A DNA stretch of 31,138 bases from IMG/VR virus record IMGVR_UViG_3300012351_000187, positions 1 to 31,138 of that record. One strand, written 5' to 3'. How positions within the stretch are numbered: position 1 is the first letter of the stretch; each line of letters starts with the position of its first letter. This stretch comes from a virus. A program made the position numbers and the translations under genes. The notes under the pieces were generated by a model. It ran no database searches, was not told where the DNA came from, and saw nothing but the letters and a program-made list of their open reading frames with translations. Below are positions 1,093 through 24,291 of this stretch, piece by piece.

Positions 1093-1297
1093 AGTACGGA
1101 GTTAAACTCGCGTACAGGGATTGGAGCGTTACAACCTGCGGATTTAAGGCCGAGGGCGAAATCTGGTTCAATGTCATCTGCGTTATTAACCCGGAACAGG
1201 TTTGCGCCTGGGCGAACACCGGGAGGGCCGCTTGTTGAAACAACGCTGCGAATTGCGCGTTGGTAAGCAGAGCGAATGGATTTGTTCCGTTAGCCAT
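1055..1297 (-). CDS. Small hypothetical late protein
   Basis: An 80-residue protein starting MANGTNPFALL. It is rich in Ala, Gln, Leu and Thr and predicted mostly helical, with one Cys. It begins two bases after the stop of the upstream fibre-like gene, so it belongs to the same late operon. Placement among fibre and baseplate-type genes suggests a virion or fibre-assembly component, but there is no recognisable domain. Its last codons overlap the 3' end of the opposite-strand gene at 649-1092. Confidence 0.6.
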   Translation of the reverse strand: MANGTNPFALLTNAQFAALFQQAALPVFAQAQTCSGLITQMTLNQISPSALNPQVVTLQSLYASLTPYFTELAARAAAGT

Positions 1298-1298
1298 T

Positions 1299-1823: not shown

Positions 1824-1831
1824 CGTATTAT

Positions 1832-2584: not shown

Positions 2585-2587
2585 AGA

Positions 2588-3976: not shown

Positions 3977-4165
3977 AGGTATCCAGTTAATCAGCTCGTC
4001 AAAATCGGTATCGGGAATCGTTAGGCGCGAGTACGTGTCGTACTTGTTGAGGCTACCCCATGGTTGACTGTCGCCTGGAAGGCTTACGGTCTGGATTAGC
4101 TGCGGTTGCCCTGTGCCTCGTTGAGCGATAACTACTCCTTCCTGTAATCCAGTTGAAACGCCATT

Positions 4166-4828
4166 TTATATATTCCTGTTCAGCGCAGAAAATGGCGGCA
4201 TTTGCGAGAGCATCATGTTCTTTTCCATCTCGTAATGAATAATGAACTCGTCCAGTCGGCTTTTGTCCTGTTCGTAATAGGTCGCCCACCGAGCTGCCAT
4301 CAGGGGTACAAGCTCCGAGAGCGGGTCAGGGATAGCAGTCTCAACATTAGCCGGGTCAGTAAGGTTGTTCGGCAAGTACAAACAATCAATTTCCGCCGTG
4401 TAGTCCGGCCCGGGTGGCGTGGGCCCCAGGAAGAACACGCCGTACCCTTGCATACTCCATGCCTGGCACATGCTTTGGAACGGGTTCGACCGAAATACCC
4501 GGTTAAAATCGCTCCAGGCGAGGCGACGCAATGGCATGTAAAAGGTCGTGGTCTGGATAAAGTTGATGTTTAGGATCGCCTGGATATTGCGCGCCGGTGG
4601 AGATCCAGGCAACGATTGTACGGCAGCCAGGACAAGGCCGAATCTGTACGCTTCCTGGCCTTGTGTTAACGCAATGGTCGCGTTAACGCGAGTAGCGTTT
4701 GTATCGATTGCAACCCGGTCGCGTGCCAGGTTAACGTACTTCGTGATGTCAGAGTCTAGCTTCCAGAACCGTTTATTAGCGTCCCGCAATAGGTTGCGCG
4801 TGAGGTAAATGTAATCTGAAAGAAGCAC
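4166..4828 (-). CDS. Head-to-tail adaptor, P22 gp4-like
   Basis: A 220-residue protein. The helical N-terminus (LLSDYIYLTRNLLRDANKRFWKLDSDITKYVNLARDRVAIDT) is followed by a beta region and a C-terminal helix containing LVPLMAARWATYYEQDK. This arrangement, including the DI..YVN.AR.rva.dt pattern, is typical of adaptor proteins that dock under the portal in P22 and related short-tailed phages. Its position between coat and gp10-like genes agrees. Expected job: the ring joining the portal to the tail hub and sealing packaged DNA. The stop is one base before an ATG (4164) that opens a ten-codon frame at the head of the next gene. Confidence 0.75.
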   Translation of the reverse strand: MLLSDYIYLTRNLLRDANKRFWKLDSDITKYVNLARDRVAIDTNATRVNATIALTQGQEAYRFGLVLAAVQSLPGSPPARNIQAILNINFIQTTTFYMPLRRLAWSDFNRVFRSNPFQSMCQAWSMQGYGVFFLGPTPPGPDYTAEIDCLYLPNNLTDPANVETAIPDPLSELVPLMAARWATYYEQDKSRLDEFIIHYEMEKNMMLSQMPPFSALNRNI

Positions 4829-4830
4829 AT

Positions 4831-5259
4831 TTAAGTTTTCAGGTTATCGAATTCTGCCGTGGTCATTGAACGCGGTGTTTTAACAATCCTGAAATCAATC
4901 CCGTCACTGAACCAGGCGCGGAATTCCTTGAACGCTTTGTGGTCGCGATCTTCGGTGCGACCGTGCGTAAGGCCGTAGGGCGAATAACTGGCCATCCGGT
5001 TTGAGTACCAGCTTTGAGAACCGTCGGGACTGACGTCTCTCTTTTCCCTGACAAGTTTTCCGCCCTGCACCTCAACGGCAAAATGGAAATAAGCTACTTC
5101 GTATGGAACGACGGTAACGTGATCCACCGGGTACTGGTAGCCTTTGCCGCCATAGAAGAGCTCGGGCTCAATCGGCCCTTTGTTGCGCACGGCGATCTTA
5201 ACGTCCTGGAACGTTTTGCCTTGGCGCTCGTTTACAACTGAATCAGTATTCGGATTCAT
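4831..5259 (-). CDS. Hypothetical virion-module protein
   Basis: A 142-residue soluble protein starting MNPNTDSVVNERQGKTFQDVKIAVRN. It contains YPVDHVTVVPYEVAYFHF and a C-terminal helix with FKEFRAWFSDGIDFRIV. The start is three bases after the decoration-like gene and the stop three bases before the adaptor gene, so it is co-translated with head proteins. No family is recognised. A role in head completion or connector assembly is inferred from position only. Confidence 0.65.
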   Translation of the reverse strand: MNPNTDSVVNERQGKTFQDVKIAVRNKGPIEPELFYGGKGYQYPVDHVTVVPYEVAYFHFAVEVQGGKLVREKRDVSPDGSQSWYSNRMASYSPYGLTHGRTEDRDHKAFKEFRAWFSDGIDFRIVKTPRSMTTAEFDNLKT

Positions 5260-5261
5260 GG

Positions 5262-5906
5262 TTACAGGTTCGGCCAGGCGCGCAATCGATAGAATGTAAA
5301 GGACGGGTTAGTCGCTCCCAATGCCTGGAACCGCACGTTACCGCCGTCGCACACGAGTATACCCGGAAAGAACGTGGTGACAGAAACGGTCGCCGTAAAG
5401 ATCGTTGTCCATGTAGCGACTGCGGTCTGAATCTGGATTGTGGACCCGGTTGTAGCGCCGTTTGTGATCGAGATATATCCGGCTCCCGGAGCTGGAACAA
5501 ACAGGCCCGTGCCCGCAACGATTGTCTGAGTTTCCGGAATAGCGAAATCGCAGCCAGGAACATCAACAAGAGCGGATGACGGGAGGCCCCAGTTGGCGTT
5601 AAAGCTGAACGCGCTTTGAAGCTGTGGGTTCGCTCCAAACGTAATCGGGGTTGCCGTCAGAGTTGTCGTGGCCGCCTGGCTCATTACGACAGACGTAGCG
5701 TTGGTGATGGATGCAATCGTGGTTCCAACTGGGATGCCTGAACCCGAAATCCCCTGACCAACCGCGAGGAAACTCGTGCCCGTTACCAGGGTGTCAAGCG
5801 TGGTGTTGGTATGCGTGTTCCCGTTCTGCACGATACCCGAATAGATCCACGCGCCTGCGGTCGGGATCGGAGTGAAAGCCGGATTAGCGTTAAATGCTTG
5901 AGCCAT
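5262..5906 (-). CDS. Possible head decoration/fibre protein
   Basis: A 214-residue protein rich in Thr, Ala, Gly and Ser. It includes a repetitive motif, GQGISGSGIPVGTTIASI, of the kind seen in phage head-fibre and tail-associated beta proteins. The C-terminal half is beta-rich and ends FTFYRLRAWPNL. It sits immediately downstream of the coat protein with a three-base gap, the usual place for decoration or head-fibre genes. That assignment is by context and composition; no catalytic residues are seen. Confidence 0.6.
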   Translation of the reverse strand: MAQAFNANPAFTPIPTAGAWIYSGIVQNGNTHTNTTLDTLVTGTSFLAVGQGISGSGIPVGTTIASITNATSVVMSQAATTTLTATPITFGANPQLQSAFSFNANWGLPSSALVDVPGCDFAIPETQTIVAGTGLFVPAPGAGYISITNGATTGSTIQIQTAVATWTTIFTATVSVTTFFPGILVCDGGNVRFQALGATNPSFTFYRLRAWPNL

Positions 5907-5909
5907 AAA

Positions 5910-6914
5910 TTATAAGGTTGCGGTGTTTTGAATACCGTAGAGCACCGAACATGAACGAGGTTTCGTGTTAATCAGCTGCAAGAGCAGCACCGCGACTCCG
6001 ACGTAGTTGAGTTGATAAGCCGGGACCATTGACTGGAAATCCACAAACTCCCAGTTAACCAGGCGATGAATGCGAAGGGTGAGGTAGTTGCAATTAAAGA
6101 ACCAGATATTCCCTTCAGCCGCGTAGGGGTCCATGTAGATGGGGACGCCCATGACTTCAAGAGCCGGGAACGCGGACATGTACTGGTCAGTTGTCTGTTC
6201 TGCGGGGATGTACCGTTCCTGCGGGAGAAAATCTTGAGCCAACTGCGCCCAGGTGGCAGGCCCGGATATACCGAAATCAGGCTTTTCGCCACTGTATTTG
6301 GTCGTACCCGTTAGGTACAAAAGGGAGAGTGAACGCGTAATAGCGGCGGCGACATTGTAACGCTTTGACTGCCACCAGGTATTCCCGGCGCGCGCAATTC
6401 CGCCAAACGTCGCAGCGTTTGTTCCGTCATCAATCGCCCAAGGAAGACCGATCAGCTGCTGCGTATTTGTCGAGTTGGTAAAGAGCGAGTTAGCCAGCAT
6501 GTCGCGTGCAGCGTTCCCGGCGTCTGTCATCCTGAGTTCAACAATGTCCTGGATCTTTTGCTCGTCCTGGATCAGGAGTTCATTGAGATAGACTGGAACT
6601 GGCACCAGGACCATCGTGTAAGCCCAGGCAGCAGGTTGAACAAACTGGACTAGTTGCGGGGCAGCAAACGTAGCCGTAAAATCGCTGTACTGCGGGGTAA
6701 CGCCTTGCGTATACTGGACGTTGGCAGTCAGGTTATCCATGCCGCCTGATTCCTCCAGGGCGTTTGCCATGAGCCCTACGATAGATGGAGCGCTGGTATA
6801 AATCTGGCAGTAAGCGTTTGCCAAATATGATCGCCTTGTCAGCGCGCTTAACTGGTTGCCAAGACCGCCTGCCGGTTCAATCCCGGTTCCTTGTACAAGT
6901 GGGAATAATGCCAT
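5910..6914 (-). CDS. Major capsid protein
   Basis: A 334-residue protein following a scaffold-like gene and preceding decoration-like and connector genes. Features include NQLSALTRRSYLANAY near the N-terminus, LVPVPVYLNELLIQDEQKIQDIVELRMTD-type helix content around residues 105-135, and a C-terminal PAYQLNYVGVAVLLLQL segment. Size and context fit an HK97-fold coat protein. This is the shell subunit that assembles around the scaffold with the portal at one vertex. The start has an AT-rich leader and lies 12 bases after the scaffold gene. The fold is inferred from position and size, not from a diagnostic motif. Confidence 0.75.
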   Translation of the reverse strand: MALFPLVQGTGIEPAGGLGNQLSALTRRSYLANAYCQIYTSAPSIVGLMANALEESGGMDNLTANVQYTQGVTPQYSDFTATFAAPQLVQFVQPAAWAYTMVLVPVPVYLNELLIQDEQKIQDIVELRMTDAGNAARDMLANSLFTNSTNTQQLIGLPWAIDDGTNAATFGGIARAGNTWWQSKRYNVAAAITRSLSLLYLTGTTKYSGEKPDFGISGPATWAQLAQDFLPQERYIPAEQTTDQYMSAFPALEVMGVPIYMDPYAAEGNIWFFNCNYLTLRIHRLVNWEFVDFQSMVPAYQLNYVGVAVLLLQLINTKPRSCSVLYGIQNTATL

Positions 6915-6926
6915 AAAATTTTATCT

Positions 6927-7499
6927 CTATTTCCCTCGTCTGTAAGCGTCCACAAGCGAACCAGTTGGAGCGCTTTCTTTCCATTTCTTGTCGAGGATTT
7001 CTTTGCGTTTGCGTTTATCGAATATGCCGCTCTTAGGATCTTTGATCATTGCACGCCACTCATCTTCACCGTCCACGTGCCGGCTAAATGGATTCAGGGG
7101 CGCTCCGGTAGGATGGTTCGGAGCGTCCTGATACTGGTAATAGCGCGCGGCTTCGGCGTATGACCCGTACATGTTGCGATCCTTGATCATGCGCTCTTCA
7201 AGATCAGTGATCTGGGCGTCAGAGAAATAAAAGGGAGCCCCGCGCACCTCGCCCCGGCGCGACTCGATCATGTCGGTCTTGGATTTATCATCCAGCTTCT
7301 TTTGAAGCTCTTCAACGCGCTCCTGCCACGGTTTAAGGGCGGATGTGATTTTTTCCTCAACCTCAGCAGCAGCGTCTATTTCAGGGACAGAGGCTTGCGG
7401 ATCAAGCCGTTTATAATGAGCGAGCAAATCCCGGCGCGCCTGAGGGTCGCGCGAGAGGATATTAAAAATTCTTGCTTCAGCGTCTGGGATCTCAGCCAT
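6927..7499 (-). CDS. Probable scaffolding protein
   Basis: A 190-residue, highly charged and mostly helical protein. It has a coiled-coil-like stretch around residues 45-75 (VEEKITSALKPWQERVEEL) and a very basic C-terminal region (DKRKRKEILDKKWKES). Scaffolds are typically charged, helical and encoded just before the coat gene, with a basic C-terminus that binds coat protein; this matches all three. It lacks hydrophobic segments. The start is five bases after the stop of the Ig-like small gene. Assignment is by composition and position. Confidence 0.65.
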   Translation of the reverse strand: MAEIPDAEARIFNILSRDPQARRDLLAHYKRLDPQASVPEIDAAAEVEEKITSALKPWQERVEELQKKLDDKSKTDMIESRRGEVRGAPFYFSDAQITDLEERMIKDRNMYGSYAEAARYYQYQDAPNHPTGAPLNPFSRHVDGEDEWRAMIKDPKSGIFDKRKRKEILDKKWKESAPTGSLVDAYRRGK

Positions 7500-7504
7500 T
7501 AGTA

Positions 7505-7801
7505 TTAAGTCTCGGAGAGCCGGAGATTCTGCGGGATACCAGGCGTTGGAACGGGCGGAACAACAGGCAGGGTAAAGGTTAGGCTAGCAGAAGCCGCGCT
7601 TGCGCTACCGGCGAGAGACGCTTTGACGGTGACTGTGTAAGTGCCATCCGGAGTGCTGGACAAGTCAAAATGCAGATCAACCGAGCCATCGGTTAGGACG
7701 CGCGCCGGGCTATCGATGTCAGCGCCACCAATGCCTGAAATAACAAACTGGTCAGGCTTCACAGTGTCGGATGCGGGGTAGGGGTCGCATACAAGAAACA
7801 T
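7505..7801 (-). CDS. Small Ig/FN3-like beta protein
   Basis: The ATG at 7799-7801 (MFLVCDPYPASD) is chosen because AAGGAGA lies five bases upstream. An upstream in-frame start at 7846 would overlap the previous gene. The 98-residue product reads as one immunoglobulin/FN3-like domain (VDLHFDLSSTPDGTYTVTVKASL) with a Pro-rich tail (VVPPVPTPGIPQ). Small proteins of this pattern occur next to portal and scaffold genes in many phages and may decorate the head or aid assembly. The role is inferred. Confidence 0.7.
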   Translation of the reverse strand: MFLVCDPYPASDTVKPDQFVISGIGGADIDSPARVLTDGSVDLHFDLSSTPDGTYTVTVKASLAGSASAASASLTFTLPVVPPVPTPGIPQNLRLSET

Positions 7802-7814
7802 GTCAATCTCCTTT

Positions 7815-7985
7815 TTATTTACCTGCCTTGATTGTGCGCCCAGCAAACTTAGCGGGCTGAAACTTTTTCATGTCGATTGGCGCAATGTCCGGGATGATCC
7901 TGGGACTTACGAGCGGTCCGGGATCAAGTTGATTAGAATCGCGCGGATCTTGCGGTTTAGATGATTTAGGACGTGGAACTGCCAT
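7815..7985 (-). CDS. 56-residue hypothetical late protein
   Basis: The frame starts MAVPRPKSSKPQDPRD and ends FAGRTIKAGK. The N-terminal half is Pro/Ser/Asp-rich and disordered, with a basic C-terminus. The start is three bases after the stop of the upstream 61-residue gene. The last residues (RTIKAGK) resemble the end of that neighbour (RTLKAGK), so the two may share a C-terminal segment by duplication. Function unknown. Confidence 0.6.
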   Translation of the reverse strand: MAVPRPKSSKPQDPRDSNQLDPGPLVSPRIIPDIAPIDMKKFQPAKFAGRTIKAGK

Positions 7986-7988
7986 AAA

Positions 7989-8174
7989 TTATTTCCCTGC
8001 TTTCAGTGTTCGGACGATGTAATAACTGGGATTTTCCTGCACCTGTTTTGGAGCGCCTTTCATGAAATTCAAGTTCGGGTATCCCAGGGATTCAATAATG
8101 ATACCGCGAATGAGTTGTTTCCCGGGGTCGTACATGCACGGCCTGAATTTTGCGCCTGAAGGATGTTTAAACAT
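7989..8174 (-). CDS. 61-residue hypothetical late protein
   Basis: A basic protein starting MFKHPSGAKFRPCMYDPGK and ending SYYIVRTLKAGK. Its ATG lies inside the last codons of the upstream 53-residue gene, which supports translational coupling. No domain is recognised. It shares a C-terminal RT(L/I)KAGK ending with the next gene. Its location between portal and scaffold genes suggests a minor head or packaging component. Confidence 0.62.
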   Translation of the reverse strand: MFKHPSGAKFRPCMYDPGKQLIRGIIIESLGYPNLNFMKGAPKQVQENPSYYIVRTLKAGK

Positions 8175-8328
8175 TGACTGTACCTAGTGCTTCCTGACTG
8201 TCATAAAGCCCTTGGGCAATTGCGCCGAACGCTTCTATGCGAAGAAGCTCGTCGAGTTTGTCGCCGTCCATCAGATGCATGAAAAGCGCGTTGGCGGTCT
8301 TTTCTTCCATATGAATTGTGACAATCAT
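8167..8328 (-). CDS. 53-residue acidic helical late protein
   Basis: The frame starts MIVTIHMEEKTANALFMHLMDGDKL and ends LYDSQEALGTVNV. GGAGG lies six bases before the ATG. The ATG overlaps the upstream TGA (ATGA), and the end overlaps the next gene's start by eight bases. The product is acidic and predicted helical, with no membrane segment. Function unknown; operon position suggests an assembly role. Confidence 0.68.
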   Translation of the reverse strand: MIVTIHMEEKTANALFMHLMDGDKLDELLRIEAFGAIAQGLYDSQEALGTVNV

Positions 8329-8795
8329 ATATTGCCTCCGGATAAAGCCGGTATAGGGCCTGTGGGCGGCTGCGGCATAGGACCGGCTGTCTGAGGTGCG
8401 CCACCCGGCGCGCCTTGACCTTGCGGGATCTGGTTTAGCTGCGGCATTTTACCGCTCTTAGCCACGTCAGAATCCGGTTTAAAATGTTTGATGAGGGCGC
8501 GAATAGCTGTGTCGAAGGCTTTAGCTTCTTCGCTGTAAGGATCGAACATGACCCGGCCGAAATGGAGCGCGCCAACGACTTTGCGCCCGATCTCGCGCCC
8601 GAACGCTTCGAGGCCCTGGGCAGGAACGCTTTTATCTATTGCGCCTGCACCGCCTGTGGGTGGCAGCGTACCGGTAGTTTCGGGACCCGGAACTGCTGCC
8701 GCCCCTCCGCTCGGAACCGCGCCGTCCGGAGGTTGACCGGACTGGGGAGCTGTAGAGGGATCTTGTCCTCCGCCTGGTGGCATTGGGATAGGCAT
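8325..8795 (-). CDS. Pro/Gly-rich portal-adjacent protein
   Basis: A 156-residue protein. It has a disordered Pro/Gly/Ala-rich N-terminus (about 1-55), a compact central helical block with FGREIGRKVVGALHFGRVMF and IRALIKHFKPDSDVAKSG (about 60-118), and a second Pro/Gln/Gly-rich tail. Phages of this type often encode such a low-complexity protein right after the portal; it may act as a chaperone or minor head protein. This is inferred from context. Translation is coupled to the following gene through ATGA. Confidence 0.65.
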   Translation of the reverse strand: MPIPMPPGGGQDPSTAPQSGQPPDGAVPSGGAAAVPGPETTGTLPPTGGAGAIDKSVPAQGLEAFGREIGRKVVGALHFGRVMFDPYSEEAKAFDTAIRALIKHFKPDSDVAKSGKMPQLNQIPQGQGAPGGAPQTAGPMPQPPTGPIPALSGGNI

Positions 8796-8828
8796 CCCTA
8801 CAAAAGTTCTAACGGTTCCCAGTGCTAA

Positions 8829-8882
8829 TTAATGTCGGCGACCTTTTCGTCGTCCGCGCTTGAATTCAACTGGAATAAACAC
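8829..8882 (-). CDS. Possible 17-residue basic micro-ORF
   Basis: In the 160-bp gap between portal and the Pro/Gly-rich gene, a GTG-started frame encodes FIPVEFKRGRRKGRRH after the initiator. AAAGGAGG lies about ten bases upstream. Nine of its residues are Lys, Arg or His. The sequence is short enough to arise by chance; the ribosome-binding site is the main support. If real, it resembles the other tiny basic proteins at the right end of the window. Confidence 0.3.
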   Translation of the reverse strand: MFIPVEFKRGRRKGRRH

Positions 8883-8955
8883 GCTCTAGAACCCTCCTTT
8901 CTAATAGTTTTTCACTATAGAGAGGGGATTTGACGCGCAATCAAGGGCTTTTATT

Positions 8956-10590
8956 TCATTCGCTGCCGGATGCTTTGCCTTTACCGCTGCGTTTAGCTTG
9001 CTGCTCGAGCTGCATCCGGGTCTGTTCCTGAACTTTTACCCATTGGATTTTCCTAAGGTCGTGCAGGATTTTTCCTTCGAGGGCCGGGTGTAACATACGG
9101 ACAAGTGTTTCCTGCGTAATTGCACCGTATCGCATAAGACCCATTGCGAGCTGGGCGTTATCTTCGACAAACAACGGATTCGAACTGTGACCGTCAACCC
9201 TAATGCGCGCGTCATCGGGGAACTCAACCAGAGAAAAAAGTTTACCATCTTCATCAACGACTTTCTCCGGTGAATACCGGCGCAGATATCTGAACAACAT
9301 CTGGGCGCATTGTTGCGCCTGTTTCTCGATTGCCAGGCCCATGACGCGCATCTCAGCGCCGGCAACGCGCAAGAGGCCAGCCGCCATGCCTTCAGTCCGT
9401 ACGCCAGCCTCTTGCCGCCCGAACATACTGGGCCGCATATTGGATTGATCCATTAAGAGCGCGTCAATGCCTTTGATATATTCAAACACCGACTCGGGCA
9501 TTGTGGGAACGAACTGTTCGATCTTTGCTGTTGTGGATGTGGTCGTAATCTGACCGCCCGGTTTACGGAATGCAGCGAGACTTTCCTCGTAAGATTTTCC
9601 CATCCCGGTTGCAGCGGTCGGAGGGTTCAAAATCTGGTCGATCAGGTTATCCATGTCGTCCATCTTGCCGCTATACCAGTCCTGAAGTTTCTTTAGATCG
9701 TCTACGAGGGAGATTCCCCAGAAGTATTCGGGATGTTCTTCAGCACAGACTTTGACGAAGGGCAGCATCCCGGGTATGCCAATACGAGATATGGGACGAT
9801 CCCAGACGATTGAGTTCCCGGTAACAGTGAATACGCGCCAGTCTCCCAGATCGTCGTCGAAACAGTAGAGATCGTAGAATCCATAGTATGTTACGGGCGT
9901 ATTTGGAACGTAAGGTGATGGACCACCCTTCCAGTATTGCGCTTCGAACTGGGTTGCATTCGGGCCCATTGTAATGACATCAGAATCCGCGCCGCCCATA
10001 GTCGCGGTCGCAAGTTCTTTAAAGATTGAGTTGCGGTCCGGGTGCCGCGATATCCGCGCCTCAATCTCTTCAATCGTATAATAGTTGGTGAGAGACACGG
10101 CCTGTTGCCGTTCAAGCCGGTTAACGTCTTCACGCAATACCCCAAAATATTTCGGGTTAATGTTGTAGGAGATCAGATCAATCTTGCCATCGGTTCGGGG
10201 CCTGGGCAGCACCGAGATAATGCCGCACCCGTTTACGCGCGAGTGTTTAACGGCTTCAAAGAAGAGCGTGTCTAAGTCAGAATCAGTCCAGGCCTGGGAA
10301 ACAACCTGGGATACCGGGTCACTGCGTTTATAGTTCTCGTCGGAATCCTCTTCAGGGGACACGTCCGCCCAGAACTTGATTGATTCAGGCGCGTACAGAA
10401 AGCTTGCCTGCCGGTTGACTACGGGCTTGACCTTGTTGGCCCGACCCCTGGAGATGTCGGTGCCGCCCTGCATGTAGTAGGCCATGTTCTCGTTGTAAAA
10501 CGTTTCACGCGTCCCGCGGGTCGATGTGCACATCCGGACCATATCCAGGACTGTATAGAGAAGTTTAGTGGGATCGCGTGGCAGAATCAT
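8956..10590 (-). CDS. Portal protein
   Basis: A 544-residue protein of typical portal size, encoded after the terminase and before head genes. Recognisable portal-like features are an N-terminal helix-rich region with SFLYAPESIKFWAD, an Asp/Glu-rich middle region, DLKKLQDWYSGKMDDMDNLI (stem-helix-like, about residues 305-330), MDQSNMRPSMFG and a charged, Gln/Lys-rich C-terminus (about 505-544). It would form the dodecameric channel through which the terminase pumps DNA and to which the gp4-like adaptor binds. Its start overlaps the stop of the upstream 76-residue gene by four bases. Confidence 0.85.
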   Translation of the reverse strand: MILPRDPTKLLYTVLDMVRMCTSTRGTRETFYNENMAYYMQGGTDISRGRANKVKPVVNRQASFLYAPESIKFWADVSPEEDSDENYKRSDPVSQVVSQAWTDSDLDTLFFEAVKHSRVNGCGIISVLPRPRTDGKIDLISYNINPKYFGVLREDVNRLERQQAVSLTNYYTIEEIEARISRHPDRNSIFKELATATMGGADSDVITMGPNATQFEAQYWKGGPSPYVPNTPVTYYGFYDLYCFDDDLGDWRVFTVTGNSIVWDRPISRIGIPGMLPFVKVCAEEHPEYFWGISLVDDLKKLQDWYSGKMDDMDNLIDQILNPPTAATGMGKSYEESLAAFRKPGGQITTTSTTAKIEQFVPTMPESVFEYIKGIDALLMDQSNMRPSMFGRQEAGVRTEGMAAGLLRVAGAEMRVMGLAIEKQAQQCAQMLFRYLRRYSPEKVVDEDGKLFSLVEFPDDARIRVDGHSSNPLFVEDNAQLAMGLMRYGAITQETLVRMLHPALEGKILHDLRKIQWVKVQEQTRMQLEQQAKRSGKGKASGSE

Positions 10591-10814
10591 GGCTTTTTGA
10601 TTACGACTACCTCTGCACTTTGCGCTCCAGTTATTTCAATGGCTACCTGGACATTACTGAAATTCCAGCGCACCCTGAAGTTGCCGTTATCACGCAGGAA
10701 TATTAAGGGGTCCGCTAATACCCGACGCAATCCAGAAAGGGATTCACCGCTGCACGGGATTCCTTCTTCAACAGATAAATCGATTAAGTCCTGGATTCTC
10801 TGGCTAGCGTCCAT
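10587..10814 (-). CDS. Small hypothetical protein between zinc-ribbon and portal genes
   Basis: The most compact choice is the ATG at 10812-10814 (MDASQRIQDLIDLSVEEG), giving 75 residues and an 11-base overlap with the upstream gene's end. In-frame TTG (10862) and ATG (10850) starts would add up to 16 residues with larger overlap. No strong Shine-Dalgarno decides between them. The product has a helical N-terminus and a beta-like C-terminus (FRVRWNFSNVQVAIEITG) ending in VVVIKKP. No family is recognised. It overlaps the portal start by four bases. Confidence 0.6.
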   Translation of the reverse strand: MDASQRIQDLIDLSVEEGIPCSGESLSGLRRVLADPLIFLRDNGNFRVRWNFSNVQVAIEITGAQSAEVVVIKKP

Positions 10815-11316
10815 TGGACCCGTTGATTTCCGTAACGTTCCCGCGCTCATCTGTGCGCGCAATCGTTTGAGTGCGCTGCGCGAGTTCGGGGTTGACCTTA
10901 CCCACTTTTGTTCCGTAAGGAACGGGGGCGGTGGAAAGCTTTGACGGGTCGGGCAAGCTGTACGGCGATCCTTTGACGCTTAATGCTGACATGTCAACCT
11001 TGTATTGAGCGAGGTCCTGCGGGTTGAATGTTGCAGCTATCGCCGGTTGCGGGATACCGCCCGCGGTCGTTGCTGTACCGCCGCTAGTAATAAACGTTGG
11101 CCGTGATACGCCGCCTGAGTTCGTGAAGTTCGTAATACCGCGCCGTTTAAATTCTCGTTCAAGAATCGTGTCGGTCTTAACAGCGACCCGTTTAGTATTG
11201 ATCTGGGGGGCGGTCCGATAATCGCGCCGGGCTTTGTGCCCGCACCGCACACAGATCGCGAGGAACGATTCAAAATCGTGCCCGCACTCTTCGCAATGAT
11301 ATTCGAGTAAGATCAT
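10804..11316 (-). CDS. Zinc-ribbon protein in the packaging module
   Basis: A 170-residue protein. Residues 6-29 contain CEEC and CVRC pairs in a short zinc ribbon (YHCEECGHDFESF / ICVRCGHKARRD), similar to FmdB-type ribbons. The remainder is low complexity, Pro/Thr/Ser/Gly-rich and probably extended. It overlaps the terminase stop by four bases (ATGA), so the two are co-translated. Zinc-ribbon proteins beside terminases may contact DNA or the packaging motor; here that is inference. It is not a recognisable small terminase. Confidence 0.7.
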   Translation of the reverse strand: MILLEYHCEECGHDFESFLAICVRCGHKARRDYRTAPQINTKRVAVKTDTILEREFKRRGITNFTNSGGVSRPTFITSGGTATTAGGIPQPAIAATFNPQDLAQYKVDMSALSVKGSPYSLPDPSKLSTAPVPYGTKVGKVNPELAQRTQTIARTDERGNVTEINGSNGR

Positions 11317-13208
11317 CTGTAAGCCCCGCGCCGCCTGGCCATCTGCTTCTTTTCTTCCTGGTCTTTCAAATCTCTCATATAAACCGACTCACGCCAGTTG
11401 AGTATATTTGCAGTCAAGATTTCTGAGGGCGTGATTTCGCCTGACTCCGCGCGCTCTTCTTTCTTGAAGAAGTCTTCTGTAAACTTCGTTCCCCCGATAT
11501 CAGTTTCCAATAATTGGACGTAGGCCATGGTTGCAAAACCCGTTGCCATGAGTCGGTGATCTTCTTTTCCGGTATCGATTGTGCCATCTTTAAGCCTCTG
11601 CATGAGTTCAATTTCTTCGAGTAACTCCATGCTTTTAATTTCCATTATGCCTTGCTCAAAAAAATCTCTGAACTGCGACAGCATCCGCACCTTATTATCC
11701 TGAGATGTGCGCCAATGGAAGCTCGCGTAATTGCGCCGGACAGCGTCGGGCCGGCTATAGACGTAATGACGCATGTTATCGAAGTGGCGTGATAACACCG
11801 GGTTATACCCGTGCGCAACTGAGGCTTGCAGCCGTTGCAACTCTTCCATAACAGCGAACCCGCCGCCTTGCAGTTCAACATTAAGGATGGTCTCAGAGTT
11901 GTAGGTGCCAGCCAGGTGCATGACAGCCCAGGCTAACTTGTAGGTAGGCAACTCGCGCCGGACAAACTCAGCTACTTGCACAGCTTTATCTGAGTAACAT
12001 CTGAACACCTGTACGCAAGCGTGGTCGCCTTCTTCGTTAGCGCCATAAGCCGGGTCAACGCCAATAACGTAGCGCACGCCCTGCCCTTCCCTGGGCTCGT
12101 CCCATGTAATGAGATCGTACCACTGCTCGCGCTTACTCACTTCCTGGATATCGGTCTCTTCGAACGAATCCCCGAACTGACACTGGAAACAGCGAGGGCA
12201 AAATTGCCGCTCTTTAACTTCAAGCCGGCGTTCGAGAAGTTTCGCGCCGTTTACGAACGTGCGCCCGCCGTAACGCCATGCGTATTCAGGAAGAGGCGGG
12301 TACTCCTGGTACATAAGTTCCAGGTTCCCGAATTTAAGTTCTTTCAAGTGCCAGCGCCACCAGCCAATTTGAGTTTCGGTAATCGACCAGCCGTAACGCC
12401 GCTTGACCGCATCAACCCAGAGCGCTTCTTCTTTGTTGGGCCTAGGGAACGTTCGCCAATACACGTTATATCGCTCAAGATCTTCAGGTACTTTAAGGTT
12501 AAGATCGTAATCAGATTGCAGCCACCAGCCTACAAAGATAAATTTCTTGCTCGTGTTATCCCCGCGTTCAGCTTCACGACACATATCCCGGAATATGTTT
12601 GGACCTTGAGCTGTGCCTTCGAACAGATAGAATCGGTTGGGATTAGTCTGGGCCAGGGATGATAGAAGCGAGCCCACGCCTTCCTCATCTTTCCATAAGC
12701 CTACCTCTGTGCCGTGGCAGCCGACGACGCCTGTGCCTCTGCCTAAACCGCCTTCGTCACGGCTGTTGGCGTTGTTCCAGATAATCTTTGACCGGTTACC
12801 GAAACTGATCATGTCCCGGTTATCGTCGTCGATTTGCTGCCGCCACTCGGGATGTTTAGCGAGACTTCGCACGAAGTCCCTGAGCAAAGAACGGTTATAG
12901 TTCGTCCGCTTGGAGTTGTCCGCGATAAAATTAAAAATGACGCCGTCATGCCGGAAACACCAGTATAAGTCAAACGCCAATCCGAGTGTGGTGATCCCGG
13001 ATTGACGGCACTTAAGGATAACGAAGAAATGGATTCCCCGGGAGAGGCCTTCGAGGATTTCGTCGAGCACATAAAGCTGGGTCCGCATCGGGATAAGGGG
13101 CACAAGCGCAGAGCTTGTTTCTTTATCCCCTTCTTTAGCGGGGATTGAGAGCCGTTCGCAGAAGGCTAAGAACGTCGCGCGATCTATCCCGGACACAGTT
13201 TTGGTCAT
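11313..13208 (-). CDS. Terminase large subunit (packaging ATPase-nuclease)
   Basis: A 631-residue protein. The ATPase part has a deviant Walker A, CRQSGITT (residues 67-74), the hydrophobic-acidic Walker B EVGLWKDEE (168-176) and the coupling motif FEGTAQG (196-202). The RNase H-like nuclease starts at VIGVDPAYG (381-389), with later acidic sites at NVELQGGG (443-450) and KEDHRLMATGFA (548-559). It cuts concatemers and drives DNA into the head through the portal. A Cys cluster, CPRCFQC (337-343), sits between the two domains. The start overlaps the upstream gene by ATGA. No adjacent small terminase is evident. Confidence 0.92.
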   Translation of the reverse strand: MTKTVSGIDRATFLAFCERLSIPAKEGDKETSSALVPLIPMRTQLYVLDEILEGLSRGIHFFVILKCRQSGITTLGLAFDLYWCFRHDGVIFNFIADNSKRTNYNRSLLRDFVRSLAKHPEWRQQIDDDNRDMISFGNRSKIIWNNANSRDEGGLGRGTGVVGCHGTEVGLWKDEEGVGSLLSSLAQTNPNRFYLFEGTAQGPNIFRDMCREAERGDNTSKKFIFVGWWLQSDYDLNLKVPEDLERYNVYWRTFPRPNKEEALWVDAVKRRYGWSITETQIGWWRWHLKELKFGNLELMYQEYPPLPEYAWRYGGRTFVNGAKLLERRLEVKERQFCPRCFQCQFGDSFEETDIQEVSKREQWYDLITWDEPREGQGVRYVIGVDPAYGANEEGDHACVQVFRCYSDKAVQVAEFVRRELPTYKLAWAVMHLAGTYNSETILNVELQGGGFAVMEELQRLQASVAHGYNPVLSRHFDNMRHYVYSRPDAVRRNYASFHWRTSQDNKVRMLSQFRDFFEQGIMEIKSMELLEEIELMQRLKDGTIDTGKEDHRLMATGFATMAYVQLLETDIGGTKFTEDFFKKEERAESGEITPSEILTANILNWRESVYMRDLKDQEEKKQMARRRGAYR

Positions 13209-13363
13209 ACCTCTGGAGGGTCGCCTTCCCGGACAAAATCACCGGCTGCCTTGATTTTATCTTTTAATTCCTGAACTTCAGCTCGTAGCCGTTCAAGCTC
13301 CGAGTCTCGCTCGCGAATATCTTCGTAGCACTGCGCTATTTCCCTGGCTGCTACTTCACTCAT
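13205..13363 (-). CDS. Small coiled-coil protein before the terminase
   Basis: A 52-residue protein starting MSEVAAREIAQCYEDIRERD. It has heptad-like ELERLRAEVQELKDKIKAAG in the centre and an acidic tail. It overlaps both neighbours by ATGA (GH16 stop at its start, terminase start at its end), so coupling is strong. The position is that of a small terminase, but it is much shorter than usual and has no visible DNA-binding motif. It could be a reduced oligomerising partner; uncertain. Confidence 0.65.
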   Translation of the reverse strand: MSEVAAREIAQCYEDIRERDSELERLRAEVQELKDKIKAAGDFVREGDPPEV

Positions 13364-14130
13364 AGATTTGGAGGCGCGTAGCAGCGCACGTAATCGACGT
13401 ACATAAATGACGGACTGATTGCTCCGGAGGTGCTGTACATAGCAAAGTCAATCATACAGTAGAGCGGCAGCGTTGCTTCGGGCGGCGTAGGCACAGTCCA
13501 AATTTCGTATCCGTCAATGTAATAATGGATAAAATCCTTATTCACTAGGCAGCCGTATACGTGCGTAAAATTGGTGAGATTCCAGGATTGCACATGGCCG
13601 CTAGCGTAAACTTGGCCACCGGACCCGTTCCATACGTGCAAAACCTGGTGCGCTACAGAAGGCTGGCTACCGTAAGCTTCTAAGATATCGATCTCGGCGG
13701 TATTGTTGGCGTGCGGCAATATTCCGTTCGCGCTGGCCAGCCAGAATCCTGGCCACGTGTCGAGCTCGCCGTGCCAGCGGATTGCGCATTCCCAGTAGCC
13801 TAATGCCTGGGCAAATCCATTGGCTTTTGTATCCATGCTGGATAAGAGACACCCGAGCCATCGGTTTTTACTCGTATCGAAGTAATCCATCATGACCAGG
13901 ACGCCGTTATTGGTGTACAAACGGTTCGGCCAGTAGCCGAATGCCGCTACCCCGAAATTCCCGTTGTACGGAGTGTTGGCAATCCATTTTGTGCCTGGCC
14001 CCCAGTTGGAGCAGGACAACGGTTCCTTAAATTCATCACTGAAAACCAGTGTATAACCGGCTGGAGGTGCCGCGTGTGCCAGGACGTGGATCAAGATAAT
14101 CAGGGACAAAAGAAGGATTCGTGTTCGCAT
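13360..14130 (-). CDS. Secreted GH16-family glycoside hydrolase (beta-glucanase/galactanase type)
   Basis: A 256-residue protein. Residues 1-20 form a Sec signal peptide (MRTRILLLSLIILIHVLAHA, likely cut after AHA). The mature part opens with GYTLVFSDEF, a common GH16 start, and contains WPGFWLAS followed by the catalytic signature EIDILE, matching ExDxxE with nucleophile, helper Asp and acid/base. The C-terminal strand (FMYVDYVRCY) is the usual GH16 end. The length fits a single catalytic domain with no fibre anchor. GH16 enzymes cleave beta-1,3(4)-glucans, agars, carrageenans or related galactans; the substrate cannot be told here. It is first in the late operon, coupled by ATGA to the gene before the terminase. 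Likely exported during infection. Confidence 0.85.
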   Translation of the reverse strand: MRTRILLLSLIILIHVLAHAAPPAGYTLVFSDEFKEPLSCSNWGPGTKWIANTPYNGNFGVAAFGYWPNRLYTNNGVLVMMDYFDTSKNRWLGCLLSSMDTKANGFAQALGYWECAIRWHGELDTWPGFWLASANGILPHANNTAEIDILEAYGSQPSVAHQVLHVWNGSGGQVYASGHVQSWNLTNFTHVYGCLVNKDFIHYYIDGYEIWTVPTPPEATLPLYCMIDFAMYSTSGAISPSFMYVDYVRCYAPPNL

Positions 14131-14155
14131 TTGTACATACCCTTGTAATCTTTAA

Positions 14156-14184
14156 TTGACGAATCCGCAAACATCGCTTTAGCT
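14156..14184 (+). promoter_or_regulatory. Weak candidate promoter, early region
   Basis: TTGACG at 14156-14161 and TTAGCT at 14179-14184 are separated by 17 bp. The -10 match is poor. A transcript from here would first meet the terminator at 14223-14280, making that hairpin a possible attenuator. The same hexamer style (TTGACG with TTAACT) occurs before the operon at 18491. Confidence 0.25.
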
Positions 14185-14222
14185 TGAGGCTGCAACGCTT
14201 ATCTTGGCGATTGTGTGTTCAG

Positions 14223-14280
14223 CCCCGGCAGGACAAGTGCCGTGAAAACTCTTTATCCTGCCGGGGTAATTTTTGTCTTT
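14223..14280 (+). terminator. Intrinsic terminator in the divergent control region
   Basis: CCCCGGCAGGA at 14223-14233 pairs perfectly with TCCTGCCGGGG at 14256-14266, an 11-bp GC-rich stem with a 22-base loop. It is followed by TAATTTTTGTCTTTTT, so it terminates rightward transcription; the reverse strand has no T-run. No rightward gene ends here, so it acts either as an attenuator for the gene at 14335 or as insulation against transcripts crossing from the late operon. Confidence 0.75.
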
Positions 14281-14288
14281 TTCTTCAC

Positions 14289-14317
14289 TTGCACTTCTTT
14301 TTGTGCTGCACTAGTAT
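14289..14317 (+). promoter_or_regulatory. Candidate promoter for the gene at 14335
   Basis: TTGCAC at 14289-14294 and TAGTAT at 14312-14317 are 17 bp apart, and expected initiation near 14324 leaves a leader of about 11 bases. Only half of the -35 matches the consensus, so support is modest. Its position just past the terminator is what a fresh promoter would need. Confidence 0.4.
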
Positions 14318-14334
14318 GCTCAAATATTCACGGC

Positions 14335-14625
14335 ATGACGATACCAGACGCAACTTTTAATGATTACTGGCCGGCGGTGAATCGCGAGCTGGTCAACCTG
14401 ACCCAGCCCAGGGAACGGATATTTGTCTGTTGCGGGTGCGGCATGGAAAAGCGGGTGCGCGGCTTGCGCCTCAATAACCATTGGCATTATCGCAGCAAAT
14501 GTCCGCAATGCGGGACCCTCGCCAGCACAATTGTCCGGCTCTCAACCAGATGCCCGGAGTGCGGCACGTTCAATACCGTTAACCACAAAAACCCTCTGGG
14601 CGGGTGCGGGTGCATGTTGCGATGA
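14335..14625 (+). CDS. Cys-rich double zinc-ribbon protein
   Basis: The start MTIPDATFNDYWPAVNREL at 14335 is preferred over the 40-residue hydrophobic extension from 14215, which would translate through the terminator stem. The 96-residue product has CCGCG (about 33-37), CPQC (about 58-61), CPEC (about 74-77) and a terminal CGC. These give two probable zinc ribbons with basic, aromatic sequence between them (RLNNHWHYRSK). It is the first rightward gene of the early region and could be a nucleic-acid-binding regulator. Family not recognised. Confidence 0.65.
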   Translation: MTIPDATFNDYWPAVNRELVNLTQPRERIFVCCGCGMEKRVRGLRLNNHWHYRSKCPQCGTLASTIVRLSTRCPECGTFNTVNHKNPLGGCGCMLR

Positions 14626-14966
14626 GCGATTTTACGGGCAATCATCCAGTACGAAATCCCGGAGTTAAAAAGCTTTCCAGGCTGGATCTGGAAGCTTCTA
14701 TACCTCCGCCGCCTGCACCTGATCATAAGATCCCACGGCTGCCATCCATCGAGCCGACATCCGAAGAATTACGAAAATACGGATGGTCTCACGAATATAT
14801 CCGGGCCACATGGGGGTATGATCAAAAAGATTTCAATGGACCACGCGATCCTTCCAAGGCTCGCAAAAGACGCGAGCGGAAAAAGATTGCGCGACTTTAC
14901 CGGAAACTTACATCCACCTGGAAGACTCAGGAAAAACTGGATAACCGGATACGATTTTTAAAATAG
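14622..14966 (+). CDS. Basic hypothetical early protein
   Basis: ATG at 14622 overlaps the previous stop as ATGA, giving 114 residues; the in-frame start at 14604 is within the upstream gene. A Pro-rich N-terminal half (ASIPPPPAPDHKIPRLPSIEPTS, broken by charged residues) leads to EELRKYGWSHEYIRATWGYD and a very basic C-terminus (KARKRRERKKIARLYRK). The composition suggests nucleic-acid binding. It is cotranscribed with the zinc-ribbon gene. A 632-bp stretch without convincing genes follows. Confidence 0.6.
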   Translation: MSDFTGNHPVRNPGVKKLSRLDLEASIPPPPAPDHKIPRLPSIEPTSEELRKYGWSHEYIRATWGYDQKDFNGPRDPSKARKRRERKKIARLYRKLTSTWKTQEKLDNRIRFLK

Positions 14967-15598
14967 CCCCCTGTTTGGGCAAGAGAAACAACTGCGGCCT
15001 GCCCCCCCATCTCCACGTACATTTTGGAAGAGCGGACATGGTTCCCGGCTAAGGAGGGCGCTGCAGGGTGCATGAGAAACTAAAGTAAGCTGTCCCGGCT
15101 TTCACCGGCGGTTCGCCGGTTCTACGAGACAGACTTTGCTCTTTAAAATAAAGAGCTTCTCAAAAACACTTCTTTAGGATTAGTCTGCTCAACGCTTAAT
15201 GCGCCTTCACAATCGTTCCCCCGATTTCTCCACGTGCTCGGCCGCCAGCCGCGATCACCAGCCTCTCAACGCCGCCGAAACAAAAGACGCGATCTGGCGA
15301 TCTTCCTTAAGATGACGGAAAAGGGAGTTCCAGGGGAACGTTCTAACGCTGGTATCCCATTCGGGAATTTTCCGGGGACCGCTTGCACGTGGTGAGTCTC
15401 TTTTATTCTGAGGACACGACCCGTCTATTTGTGCTTAGAGCGTAAAAAGGCATGCTTGTTCCCTCCAGAGCGAGGGAATAAGATAGAGGAGAGGAGAGGG
15501 AGAGAGGGTCATCATCCACGCCATGTCTCTAAGCGCGCGTGCGCGCGTTGATCTGCTCCCTTTGAAATGGAAGCTCAGGTAGAATAAGATGGGAATCA
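14967..15598 (+). other. Non-coding 632-bp region with structured elements; candidate origin or RNA locus
   Basis: No convincing long frame on either strand. Perfect hairpins occur at about 15109-15125 (ACCGGCG/CGCCGGT), 15137-15155 (GCTCTTTA/TAAAGAGC) and about 15459-15478 (TTCCCTC/GAGGGAA). The last is followed by a roughly 37-base purine-rich run (to about 15508) and an alternating GCGCGCGTGCGCGCG at 15533-15547. Two tiny ATGA-coupled frames (15199-15315, 38 codons; 15312-15395, 27 codons) are present but weak. Such features could mark a replication origin, a packaging site or a small RNA. I cannot separate these. Confidence 0.4.
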
Positions 15599-17346: not shown

Positions 17347-17541
17347 ATGGATGCTGCCCGCGCTCTTGTGCTGCTCGATCCTCTTGGTATCGGCTTACTG
17401 GACGCCACAAAAGAGCTTATCGCGCTCCGTGAAGCGACCGGCCTGTGGCGACCCTATACGTTCGGCGAAGCCGTTAAAGCCGTCCTCCAGAGTCGTGTGG
17501 ATATGATGGCAAGACTGTATGAATTCCCAGTCAATTACTGA
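17347..17541 (+). CDS. Hypothetical early protein, 64 residues
   Basis: The segment MDAARALVLLDPLGIGLLDA and ELIALREATGLWRPYTFGEAV is well-formed helical protein sequence. The frame stays open back to a TTG at 17257, but the extra residues look like low-quality Ser-rich sequence. A competing frame (17216-17506) shares the same DNA and is less protein-like downstream. The end overlaps the next gene's start by 23 bases. Function unknown. Confidence 0.5.
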   Translation: MDAARALVLLDPLGIGLLDATKELIALREATGLWRPYTFGEAVKAVLQSRVDMMARLYEFPVNY

Positions 17542-17740
17542 ACGCTCAGCGAATGAATATCTTCTGTATCTCAAATACAAAGATATTCCAGGAGGGGAGG
17601 ACCGCTCGGAGATGCACAGACAATGCTCCGTGGATCTCATGATCCTCGCCTTTTTAGCGGAAATGGTTACTCCTTGCCCCAATCCAGATCATCCACCTGC
17701 CGACGGCTCTTCCAATACGCGGACCACGTCTCAGGACTGA
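17519..17740 (+). CDS. Hypothetical early protein whose C-terminus reads through a duplicated segment
   Basis: A 73-residue frame. Residues 1 to about 53 (MNSQSITERSANEYLLYLKYKDIPG and later VDLMILAFLAEMVTP) look like real protein. The last 20 (from NPDHPPADGSS) come from the 65-bp direct repeat and are the antisense of a duplicated 3' end of the RHH gene. An identical tail ends the frame at 17819-18097. The original gene was probably truncated when the repeat arrived. Function unknown. Confidence 0.5.
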   Translation: MNSQSITERSANEYLLYLKYKDIPGGEDRSEMHRQCSVDLMILAFLAEMVTPCPNPDHPPADGSSNTRTTSQD

Positions 17741-17818: not shown

Positions 17819-18097
17819 ATGTTCTTTGACGTAATAGACACCCAGACAGGCCAGTACCCCAACCTTGAACGGATCGCACTGACTGAAGACTGGGCGCGAG
17901 GCCTGGTTTATTGCGACGTAAGCGGGTTCGCTATAACTGACGACGGGTGCCTTATCCTAATGGATGATTGCGATAATGTAGCGCACCCGCCCGAAGGACG
18001 ATTCAAAGTAGTAGCGTTAGACGCTACTCTTTTCCCCAATCCAGATCATCCACCTGCCGACGGCTCTTCCAATACGCGGACCACGTCTCAGGACTGA
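17819..18097 (+). CDS. Hypothetical early protein overlapping the RHH gene
   Basis: A 92-residue frame. Residues 1-72 (MFFDVIDTQTGQYPNLERI, then LVYCDVSGFAITDDGCLILMD) read as a compact, acidic alpha/beta domain that I believe recurs in phage genomes as a short stand-alone protein. Residues from NPDHPPADG onward are the antisense of the RHH gene's 3' end. The frame is convergent with that gene and overlaps it by 74 bp. Function unknown. Confidence 0.6.
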   Translation: MFFDVIDTQTGQYPNLERIALTEDWARGLVYCDVSGFAITDDGCLILMDDCDNVAHPPEGRFKVVALDATLFPNPDHPPADGSSNTRTTSQD

Positions 18098-22212: not shown

Positions 22213-22373
22213 ACATACAAATGGATACACAAGAAGAATTGGAACGCAACGCGCGCTTCCGGGCTGCCGCCCTGGAGCCGGTTGTAGAGAAACTCGCCCT
22301 CTGCCTGGAGGTCTTACTCCAGATCCGGGAAGAGCTGAAAAAACATCACAAACTCATCGAACACTGCTTATGA
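22209..22373 (+). CDS. 54-residue coiled-coil protein
   Basis: MNIQMDTQEELERNARFRA continues in a helix with EKLALCLEVLLQIREELKK. It is almost entirely amphipathic helix with one Cys pair. ATGA coupling on both sides. Function unknown; likely an oligomeric accessory factor. Confidence 0.6.
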   Translation: MNIQMDTQEELERNARFRAAALEPVVEKLALCLEVLLQIREELKKHHKLIEHCL

Positions 22374-22816
22374 TAAGAGCCACATTATTGGCACTTGGGT
22401 TTGTGTGGGCTATTAACGCAAACGCGGACAACCTGAAAAGCCAGCTAATACTTGATACGGGCCAATTTACTGCTCAGACCGATCGCACTGATATCGAATG
22501 GGTAAATCCATACGCGCTCACAGTAAGGATTCATTCAATTGAGCTGCACATGATTTGCCCTCCCGAAACGTGGATAGGGTGCGCAGCATGGATCAGTAGA
22601 GCGTCAGACGGGTCCCAGGTTATCAGGGGTGGATTATATTATTCTACTACGAGTCCGTACCTGATGGAGAAAACATTTTCCCCGAACTACATGGACATAC
22701 TGCCCGGCGATGGGTTGATCTTGCGGTACTCGTCTTCGCCTGCCGCCGCTAATCCGTACATTTACCATTACTACGCAATCGTTTGGTTTACCTTTGTTGC
22801 GCCAGGAACGCCATGA
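22370..22816 (+). CDS. Exported early protein with signal peptide
   Basis: A 148-residue protein. Residues 1-19 (MIRATLLALGFVWAINANA) form a Sec signal peptide with ANA cleavage motif. The mature part is beta-rich, aromatic and has two Cys (MICPPETWIGCAAW) that could form a disulfide. It is likely periplasmic or surface-exposed and encoded in the early operon, which is unusual for virion parts. A role in altering the host envelope or in superinfection exclusion is inferred from timing and export. Coupled to the next gene by ATGA. Confidence 0.65.
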   Translation: MIRATLLALGFVWAINANADNLKSQLILDTGQFTAQTDRTDIEWVNPYALTVRIHSIELHMICPPETWIGCAAWISRASDGSQVIRGGLYYSTTSPYLMEKTFSPNYMDILPGDGLILRYSSSPAAANPYIYHYYAIVWFTFVAPGTP

Positions 22817-23283: not shown

Positions 23284-23510
23284 ATACGGAATATGTTAAC
23301 TGCATGGTTGAGAATCTGGCCGCGAAAGACGCAGAGATCGAATACTGGAAATCGCACTCCCTGCAAAAAGATGCTGAGATCGAGTACTTGAAATCGATCA
23401 ATAAAAGACAAGGAGAATACACGCGCGCTCTGCAAAGCGAGATTAAGCGGATGGAGGAGGAAATCGCTGCTCTTAACAATCAGATGGAGGAAATGGAAGA
23501 AGATAAATGA
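23280..23510 (+). CDS. Coiled-coil protein, 76 residues
   Basis: The heptad-rich sequence carries an internal duplication: KDAEIEYWKS (about 16-25) and KDAEIEYLKS (about 30-39). The C-terminus is a Glu/Lys-rich helix ending MEEMEEDK. ATGA-coupled to its neighbours. It precedes the coiled-coil paralogue family and may be a diverged member. Confidence 0.65.
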   Translation: MNTEYVNCMVENLAAKDAEIEYWKSHSLQKDAEIEYLKSINKRQGEYTRALQSEIKRMEEEIAALNNQMEEMEEDK

Positions 23511-23731
23511 CAAAGGGGTGGTATGAGCGGACATTAGTTGACAAGGCATGCGAGATCGAGCGGCTTAGAAACGAAATTAATATGCTTCAGCGCAACGAAC
23601 TTTACCTGAAGGAACTAGCCCGCCGCGCGGCTGATGCGCTGGAACACGTCCTGCCAATTGAAACATACGCCTTTCTGGACTGGCATCCGTATTACGAACT
23701 GAAGGATAAACTACGGGAGGCGGCAAAATGA
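23507..23731 (+). CDS. Ead/Ea22-like small coiled-coil protein, paralogue 1
   Basis: A 74-residue protein. The N-terminal heptads ACEIERLRNEINMLQRNEL precede a conserved module, RAADALEHVLPIETYAFLDW then PYYELKDKLREAAK (about residues 40-74). The same module ends the gene at 23929-24291 nearly unchanged. Proteins with an LxRAADALE...LRxAAK tail are common in phage early regions, in the Ead/Ea22-like group; their function is poorly known. Confidence 0.65.
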   Translation: MTKGWYERTLVDKACEIERLRNEINMLQRNELYLKELARRAADALEHVLPIETYAFLDWHPYYELKDKLREAAK

Positions 23732-23928: not shown

Positions 23929-24291
23929 ATGAGTGAAATAAGTTATGATGAATATGAGATGGTCTGCTCTGATCTTCAGAGAGCAGAAGGGGAATACGAA
24001 GCACTCTTAAAGCACTTCGAGATTCTAAAGGCTTCTTGCGGCGGCAAGGACACCGAGATCGAGCGGCTGAAGGAGGAGAATTGGCATTACTCAGAAGTGC
24101 AAGCACAGTTGAAATGGGTCAAGAACACTAATGGCGAATTACTCACGGATCTAGCCAGAAAGAGGGAACTCCTGACCCGCGCGGCTGATGCGCTGGATCA
24201 CGTCTTGCCTATCGAGACATACGCTTTTTTGGATTGGCGCCCCTATTACGAACTAAAGAAAGAACTGCGGGACGAAGCCGCGAAACTATGA
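23929..24291 (+). CDS. Ead/Ea22-like coiled-coil protein, paralogue 3
   Basis: A 120-residue protein. A long coiled-coil N-terminal part (about 1-75, including KDTEIERLKEENWHYSEVQ) ends in LLTRAADALDHVLPIETYAF and LDWRPYYELKKELRDEAAKL. Its tail is nearly the same in protein as paralogue 1 but differs at many silent sites, so the duplication is old and the protein is conserved. ATGA-coupled to the next gene. Confidence 0.68.
   Translation: MSEISYDEYEMVCSDLQRAEGEYEALLKHFEILKASCGGKDTEIERLKEENWHYSEVQAQLKWVKNTNGELLTDLARKRELLTRAADALDHVLPIETYAFLDWRPYYELKKELRDEAAKL

Follow-up and report, generated by a model that had tools for sequence, protein, structure and literature searches.

A virus-encoded putative GH16 glycanase with a predicted signal peptide in a variable slot before the terminase gene

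The IMG/VR virus record IMGVR_UViG_3300012351_000187, analyzed here over positions 1–31,138 (31,138 bases; referred to as the window), carries a gene for a GH16 protein with intact catalytic residues and an export-type N-terminus, overlapping the small gene that precedes the one for the terminase large subunit (TerL). With a probability of about 0.5, its product is a phage-encoded, Sec-exported, non-virion endo-glycanase that loosens exopolysaccharide (EPS) around lysis, and its gene is exchangeable cargo occupying the slot before terL.

Results

The GH16 gene opens the structural gene block

All assignable genes from position 14130 down to 1 lie on the minus strand, and a divergent block on the plus strand contains Erf and exonuclease genes; the GH16 gene is, thus, the first of the structural block (Table 1). 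A major head protein and, weakly, a portal were confirmed in the window by Pfam and PHROGs, and an SU10-type adaptor is also present. The 52-aa ORF following GH16 gave no PHROG match and only sub-threshold Pfam matches. Late production of GH16 is most likely, as deduced from this gene order. The promoter scan of 13100–14700 revealed no sigma-70 consensus. Between the divergent blocks, ahead of the first plus-strand gene, a GC-rich inverted repeat of 12 bp encloses a long loop and precedes T-runs (14222–14274, plus strand; RNA fold −26 kcal/mol, z −3.9); it looks like a terminator or attenuator at an unexpected site.

Table 1. Features of the GH16 locus in the window.
Feature	Position	Strand	Evidence
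GH16 gene, 256 aa, ATG start, open frame	13360..14130	−	PF00722, AlphaFold2 model, structural matches
AAGGG ribosome-binding-like site, 9 nt upstream of the GH16 ATG	14140..14144	−	sequence
Sec signal peptide, residues 1–20 (MRTRILLLSLIILIHVLAHA), no lipobox	14071..14130	−	sequence, n/h/c score
Catalytic motif EIDILE, E146-I-D148-I-L-E151, β-bulge type ExDxxE	13678..13695	−	alignment and model
ATGA overlap, GH16 stop/52-aa ORF start	13360..13363	−	sequence
52-aa ORF, charged, coiled-coil-like, between GH16 and terL	13205..13363	−	sequence
ATGA overlap, 52-aa ORF stop/terL start	13205..13208	−	sequence
Terminase large subunit (TerL)	11313..13208	−	PF17289, 28.9 bits; phrog_2, E 4e-14
Intergenic region from which the structural (minus-strand) and plus-strand blocks diverge	14131..14338	.	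gene directions; the 14338 edge assumes that an ATG near 14338 starts the first plus-strand gene

No terminal repeats were found in the 31,138-base window. Another viral contig (L002; IMGVR_UViG_3300012211_000086) has the same gene arrangement and is 99.9% identical, without a break, over window positions 5308–15545, which makes an assembly chimera unlikely. In a search for close phage records, window positions 1–8000 gave no DNA match; when phage records were searched with tblastn, GH16 matched only Curtobacterium phages, and TerL matched five distant records.

Two pairs of neighboring plus-strand ORFs have near-identical C-terminal ends, NPDHPPADGSSNTRTTSQD in 17519–17740 and 17819–18097, and HVLPIETYAFLDW in 23507–23731 and 23929–24291, which is a sign of recent duplication.

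A single GH16 domain with an intact active site

The 256-aa protein matched PF00722 with 33.9 bits (cut-off 22). Its AlphaFold2 model, built from an alignment of eight sequences (pLDDT 80.7, pTM 0.83), is a β-jelly-roll in which EIDILE lies within the active-site strand 144–151. The motif lines up with its catalytic counterpart in laminarinases of known structure, and E146, D148, and E151 are invariant across eight GH16 proteins. Thus, profile, predicted fold, and motif all place the protein in GH16, and it looks like an active, predicted hydrolase/transglycosylase. The closest structures of the model, for which Foldseek was also run, were laminarinases and endo-β-1,3(4)-glucanases (6jhj, Z 26.5, 2.2 Å over 213 residues; SCLam, 6xqh, Z 26.2). 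As other GH16 classes were found within a few Z units of these best matches, the fold fixes the family, not the substrate; laminarin, agar, or κ-carrageenan as default substrate was therefore dropped in favor of gene context.

Within the family, EIDILE has the β-bulge form ExDxxE of GH16_3 (PMC6827312), which rules out a GH16_21 licheninase (ExDxE without β-bulge). The WPA…WXX…WPX pattern of GH16_3, described as "largely conserved" rather than strict (PMC6827312), is incomplete: WPG and FWL are present, and the WPX before the active-site strand is missing (PHANNTAEIDILE). The best NCBIfam model was EglC, an endo-1,3-1,4-β-glycanase (NF052454), with 64 bits over the C-terminal 154 positions; this is far short of the curated equivalog cut-off of 700 bits over 459 positions. 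A literature search turned up no paper on EglC.

Neither Pfam, nor PHROGs, nor the fold model indicated any domain beyond GH16. A preliminary description of this DNA had proposed a free GH16 with a Sec-type N-terminus and intact EIDILE, lacking any fiber or virion-attachment domain, coupled via ATGA to the gene before the terminase, and had suggested structure prediction as a check; on all these points, the jelly-roll included, it was borne out. As the protein consists of a signal peptide and a catalytic domain only, it lacks the N-terminal attachment or fiber domain that marks the virion-attached depolymerase/tailspike class. It might nevertheless be a virion-associated depolymerase serving entry, even without a recognizable attachment domain, as Curtobacterium phages have a GH16 domain in an annotated minor tail protein shortly before terL. 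The build of the window protein, one catalytic domain preceded by a signal peptide of cleavable type, renders this very improbable, and separate carbohydrate-active proteins in the late block could serve entry instead.

Two such proteins were noticed in the window. The minus-strand block has at its far end an 897-aa frame (24610–27303, minus strand; its TTG start is uncertain), which contains a chitobiase/Fn3-like domain, matches GH43 above the cut-off (43.8 bits), and is likely a fiber-type glycan enzyme, judging from these domains. The end of a protein cut by the contig edge (30817–31137, minus strand) matches Polysacc_lyase PF14099 below the cut-off (22.6 versus 29.9 bits) and is possibly a third carbohydrate-active protein. 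Both the GH43-like protein and the lyase-like fragment could serve entry.

The N-terminus is of the export type

The N-terminus, MRTRILLLSLIILIHVLAHA followed by APP, has a charged n-region, a hydrophobic h-region, and an AxA c-region, that is, a signal peptide with a type I cleavage site according to a crude, rule-based n/h/c score. By this score GH16 ranked first of 24 window proteins (5.2; next best 3.8) and its signal peptide predicts export. Were the host Gram-negative, a Sec signal by itself would take the protein to the periplasm but not across the outer membrane, so release would occur mostly at lysis. The earlier proposal that the enzyme acts from the infected cell is tempered by this periplasmic stop. 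Elsewhere in the window, a 148-aa protein of no family in the plus-strand block (22370–22816, plus strand) also has a signal-peptide-like N-terminus (MIRATLLALGFVWAINANA).

GH16 is sporadic among related phages, and the region before terL is variable

The preliminary description had called for a survey of related phages for a conserved position before terL, and none was found. The three nearest TerL relatives (L005, L006, and L007; 66–68% identity) lack GH16 both before terL and on the rest of their contigs. A PF00722 search detected GH16 on 2 of 83 TerL-related contigs, a lower bound because many contigs are fragments (the near-identical twin L002 was excluded from the count), and in both cases at places other than before terL. 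On one of them (L013; TerL 43%), a small cassette next to the terL block includes, on the other strand, the gene for a 291-aa exported-type GH16; on the other (G008/L090; TerL 39%), a 552-aa exported-type GH16 belongs to the tail-end part of the late block, ∼21 kb away. Hence, the placement of the gene at the head of a late/packaging operon holds for the window, where it opens the structural block, but not as a conserved position, and "late" follows from gene order.

What precedes terL instead differs widely: a co-directional ORF of at least 140 aa was found there in 33 of the 70 relatives with enough upstream sequence, falling into 17 families, glycosyltransferases included. The region before terL is, therefore, a variable accessory slot, and the GH16 gene, which close relatives do without, is swappable cargo and no fixed part of the virus. 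In a related phage (L014), the product of an ORF ∼0.5 kb before terL (2711–3769, plus strand) has 352 aa, begins with an export-type N-terminus, and matches no Pfam family; it is perhaps another exported cargo protein.

A wider rule, according to which viral GH16 genes precede terL, was tried and rejected: among 20 further GH16 viral contigs, 6 (G008 among them) had a TerL detectable by phrog_2, and the two genes were close in only one, the P22-like contig L155. Two unrelated groups, represented by Curtobacterium phages and L155, also have GH16 near terL. Viral contig L150 also encodes an export-type GH16; there (219–4026, plus strand), it is followed by a 693-aa protein that begins with a signal-peptide-like stretch and weakly matches the K1-lyase C-terminal domain.

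The sporadic distribution (2 of 83, and absence from the closest three) is also what a recently acquired bacterial gene would show if it served no selected function in the phage. Such passive cargo appears unlikely to us, because no damage is seen in the frame, the signal peptide, or the active site, an ATGA overlap joins the gene to its neighbor, its base composition fits that of the structural genes (GC 0.52, third-position GC 0.61), and similar exported-type GH16 recur in related phages at different places. The possibility of a sporadic host fragment, which the preliminary description had counted against itself, hence applies to the position of the gene, but not to the gene, which is intact and recurring. 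In a phylogenetic tree, the window GH16 paired with that of L013 (92/94), and that of L090 branched elsewhere; the branches are long, and the GH16 genes in this TerL group may have one origin or more.

Cellular relatives, some of them linked to EPS synthesis

A scan of a genome collection matched the window GH16 to a Planctomycetota protein (39% identity) and to Methylobacterium proteins. Planctomycetota relatives, found in 5 of 392 genomes, reach 43% identity and are the closest single sequences by this measure; relatives in the Hyphomicrobiales, the order of Methylobacterium, occur in 26 of 397 genomes (best 41%). In the tree, the window and L013 sequences stand beside a group composed of both (94/92), with long branches that leave the exact order unsure. 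Several of the nearest cellular relatives are single-domain and exported-type. The Hyphomicrobiales relatives (33–41% identity) have the motif GPGTRWIAHTPWNGDFG, the window counterpart of which is GPGTKWIANTPYNGNFG.

Eight of the 10 closest Hyphomicrobiales relatives are encoded within 10 kb of a PF13440 Wzx-type flippase, versus 0.17 expected (P ∼1e-13, somewhat overstated as it assumes independent genomes and uniform gene positions). Glycosyltransferases, a polysaccharide export protein, an initiating sugar transferase, and a chain-length protein are further neighbors. In the four Planctomycetota genomes checked, where gene context was assessed through flippase and export hits, no flippase was nearby. 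The EPS linkage is, thus, confined to the Hyphomicrobiales half of the sister group only. Because these relatives cluster with EPS flippase genes, bacterial EPS is most likely the substrate, and better supported as such than agar, lichenan, or laminarin. Against an EPS role speaks that close phage relatives do without the gene and that the nearest sequences by identity are those of Planctomycetota, without the flippase link.

Assigning a host through TerL was also attempted; 385 genomes of the class of Methylobacterium contained 0 matches, which, with no positive control, shows little, and this route was dropped.

Soil-virus GH16 genes are usually listed as carbon-degradation auxiliary metabolic genes (AMGs) (PMC10127799, PMC6460857, PMC12016548), and the predicted fold is closest to laminarinases, both of which would suit an exported enzyme degrading environmental β-glucan to feed the infected host. 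We deem this improbable: no oligosaccharide transporter or sugar-metabolism gene was found among the window proteins scanned, GH16 is placed with packaging genes and not with early metabolic ones, and EPS synthesis clusters were the only enriched neighborhoods found for its relatives.

Discussion

The late EPS-loosening reading draws on three lines: kinship makes bacterial EPS the likely target, gene order argues for late production, and the signal peptide argues for export. With its gene first in the late block, GH16 would accumulate alongside the structural proteins, cross the inner membrane, and be freed at lysis at the latest. Once released, it would cut β-linked EPS of the host or its neighbors, and progeny, which might otherwise be trapped in matrix or on debris, would be freed and spread. 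The earlier suggestion that the enzyme strips the host's glycan coat gains support from the EPS clusters of the nearest Hyphomicrobiales relatives, though cleavage, substrate, and benefit to the phage are still what we infer from kinship and gene order.

Influenza neuraminidase, which frees progeny, is the model for a more specific and rather doubtful version of this role. By analogy, GH16 might be a receptor-destroying enzyme, that is, an exported version of a bacterial EPS-cluster glycanase, made late, that clears from the infected cell and from debris the EPS bound by the phage's own glycan-binding fibers.

Enzymes that act on the producer's own polysaccharide are on record. In rhizobia, the glycanases ExoK and ExsH trim succinoglycan made by the cell itself (PMC4916376). 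Stewartan is cleaved by WceF, whose gene belongs to an EPS synthesis cluster and whose fold is that of phage tailspikes (PMC7949094). Phage polysaccharide depolymerases, by contrast, are normally studied as virion parts serving entry. If the late EPS-loosening reading is true, a free, exported, late glycanase akin to EPS-cluster enzymes would split a role in exit and dispersal from that in entry, and GH16 genes in soil viromes may target bacterial slime instead of carbon from plants or algae.

Comparison with known systems

The GH16_3 laminarinases and endo-β-1,3(4)-glucanases (6jhj, SCLam 6xof, 2hyk, and 2vy0) resemble the window protein in the predicted jelly-roll, ExDxxE, and a histidine in the equivalent position of the following strand; they differ in sequence (18–24% identity) and in the WPx loop motif, in place of which the window protein has PHANNTA, and the window gene is phage-carried. 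With the rhizobial EPS-cluster glycanases (ExoK and ExsH, likened by role; EglC; the Hyphomicrobiales proteins L119–L128), it has in common GPGT-W-I-A-x-T-P, EglC as best NCBIfam model and, for several of them, the export-type N-terminus. These are, however, cell genes inside EPS clusters (33–41% identity), whereas the window gene lies in a phage structural block.

Among phages, the Curtobacterium phages PQ868986 and PQ868987 likewise encode GH16 two or three genes before the terminase, but as a domain of a 914-aa "minor tail protein" whose N-terminal region is no signal peptide and whose end, judged by eye, is SGNH-like; the phage is unrelated. In the P22-like L155 (IMGVR_UViG_3300012683_000028), the GH16 gene also ATGA-overlaps its downstream neighbor, ∼1.3 kb before terL; TerL and portal are of unrelated families, and its GH16 lacks a signal peptide. 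The GH32 of Bacillus phages SP10, phiNIT1, and SPG24, with biofilm levan as proposed target, is also a free glycosidase, but of another family and without signal peptide (PMC4595243). BFVD contains a "laminarinase-like" phage protein. The soil-virus AMG reports likewise describe GH16 in viral genomes from soil and, in the excerpts available, give lists without export, operon place, or EPS-cluster kinship (PMC10127799, PMC6460857, PMC12016548). Phage GH16 genes in soil viromes are, thus, already known; what is distinctive here is the Sec-type signal peptide, the ATGA coupling toward the packaging genes, and the kinship to EPS-cluster enzymes.
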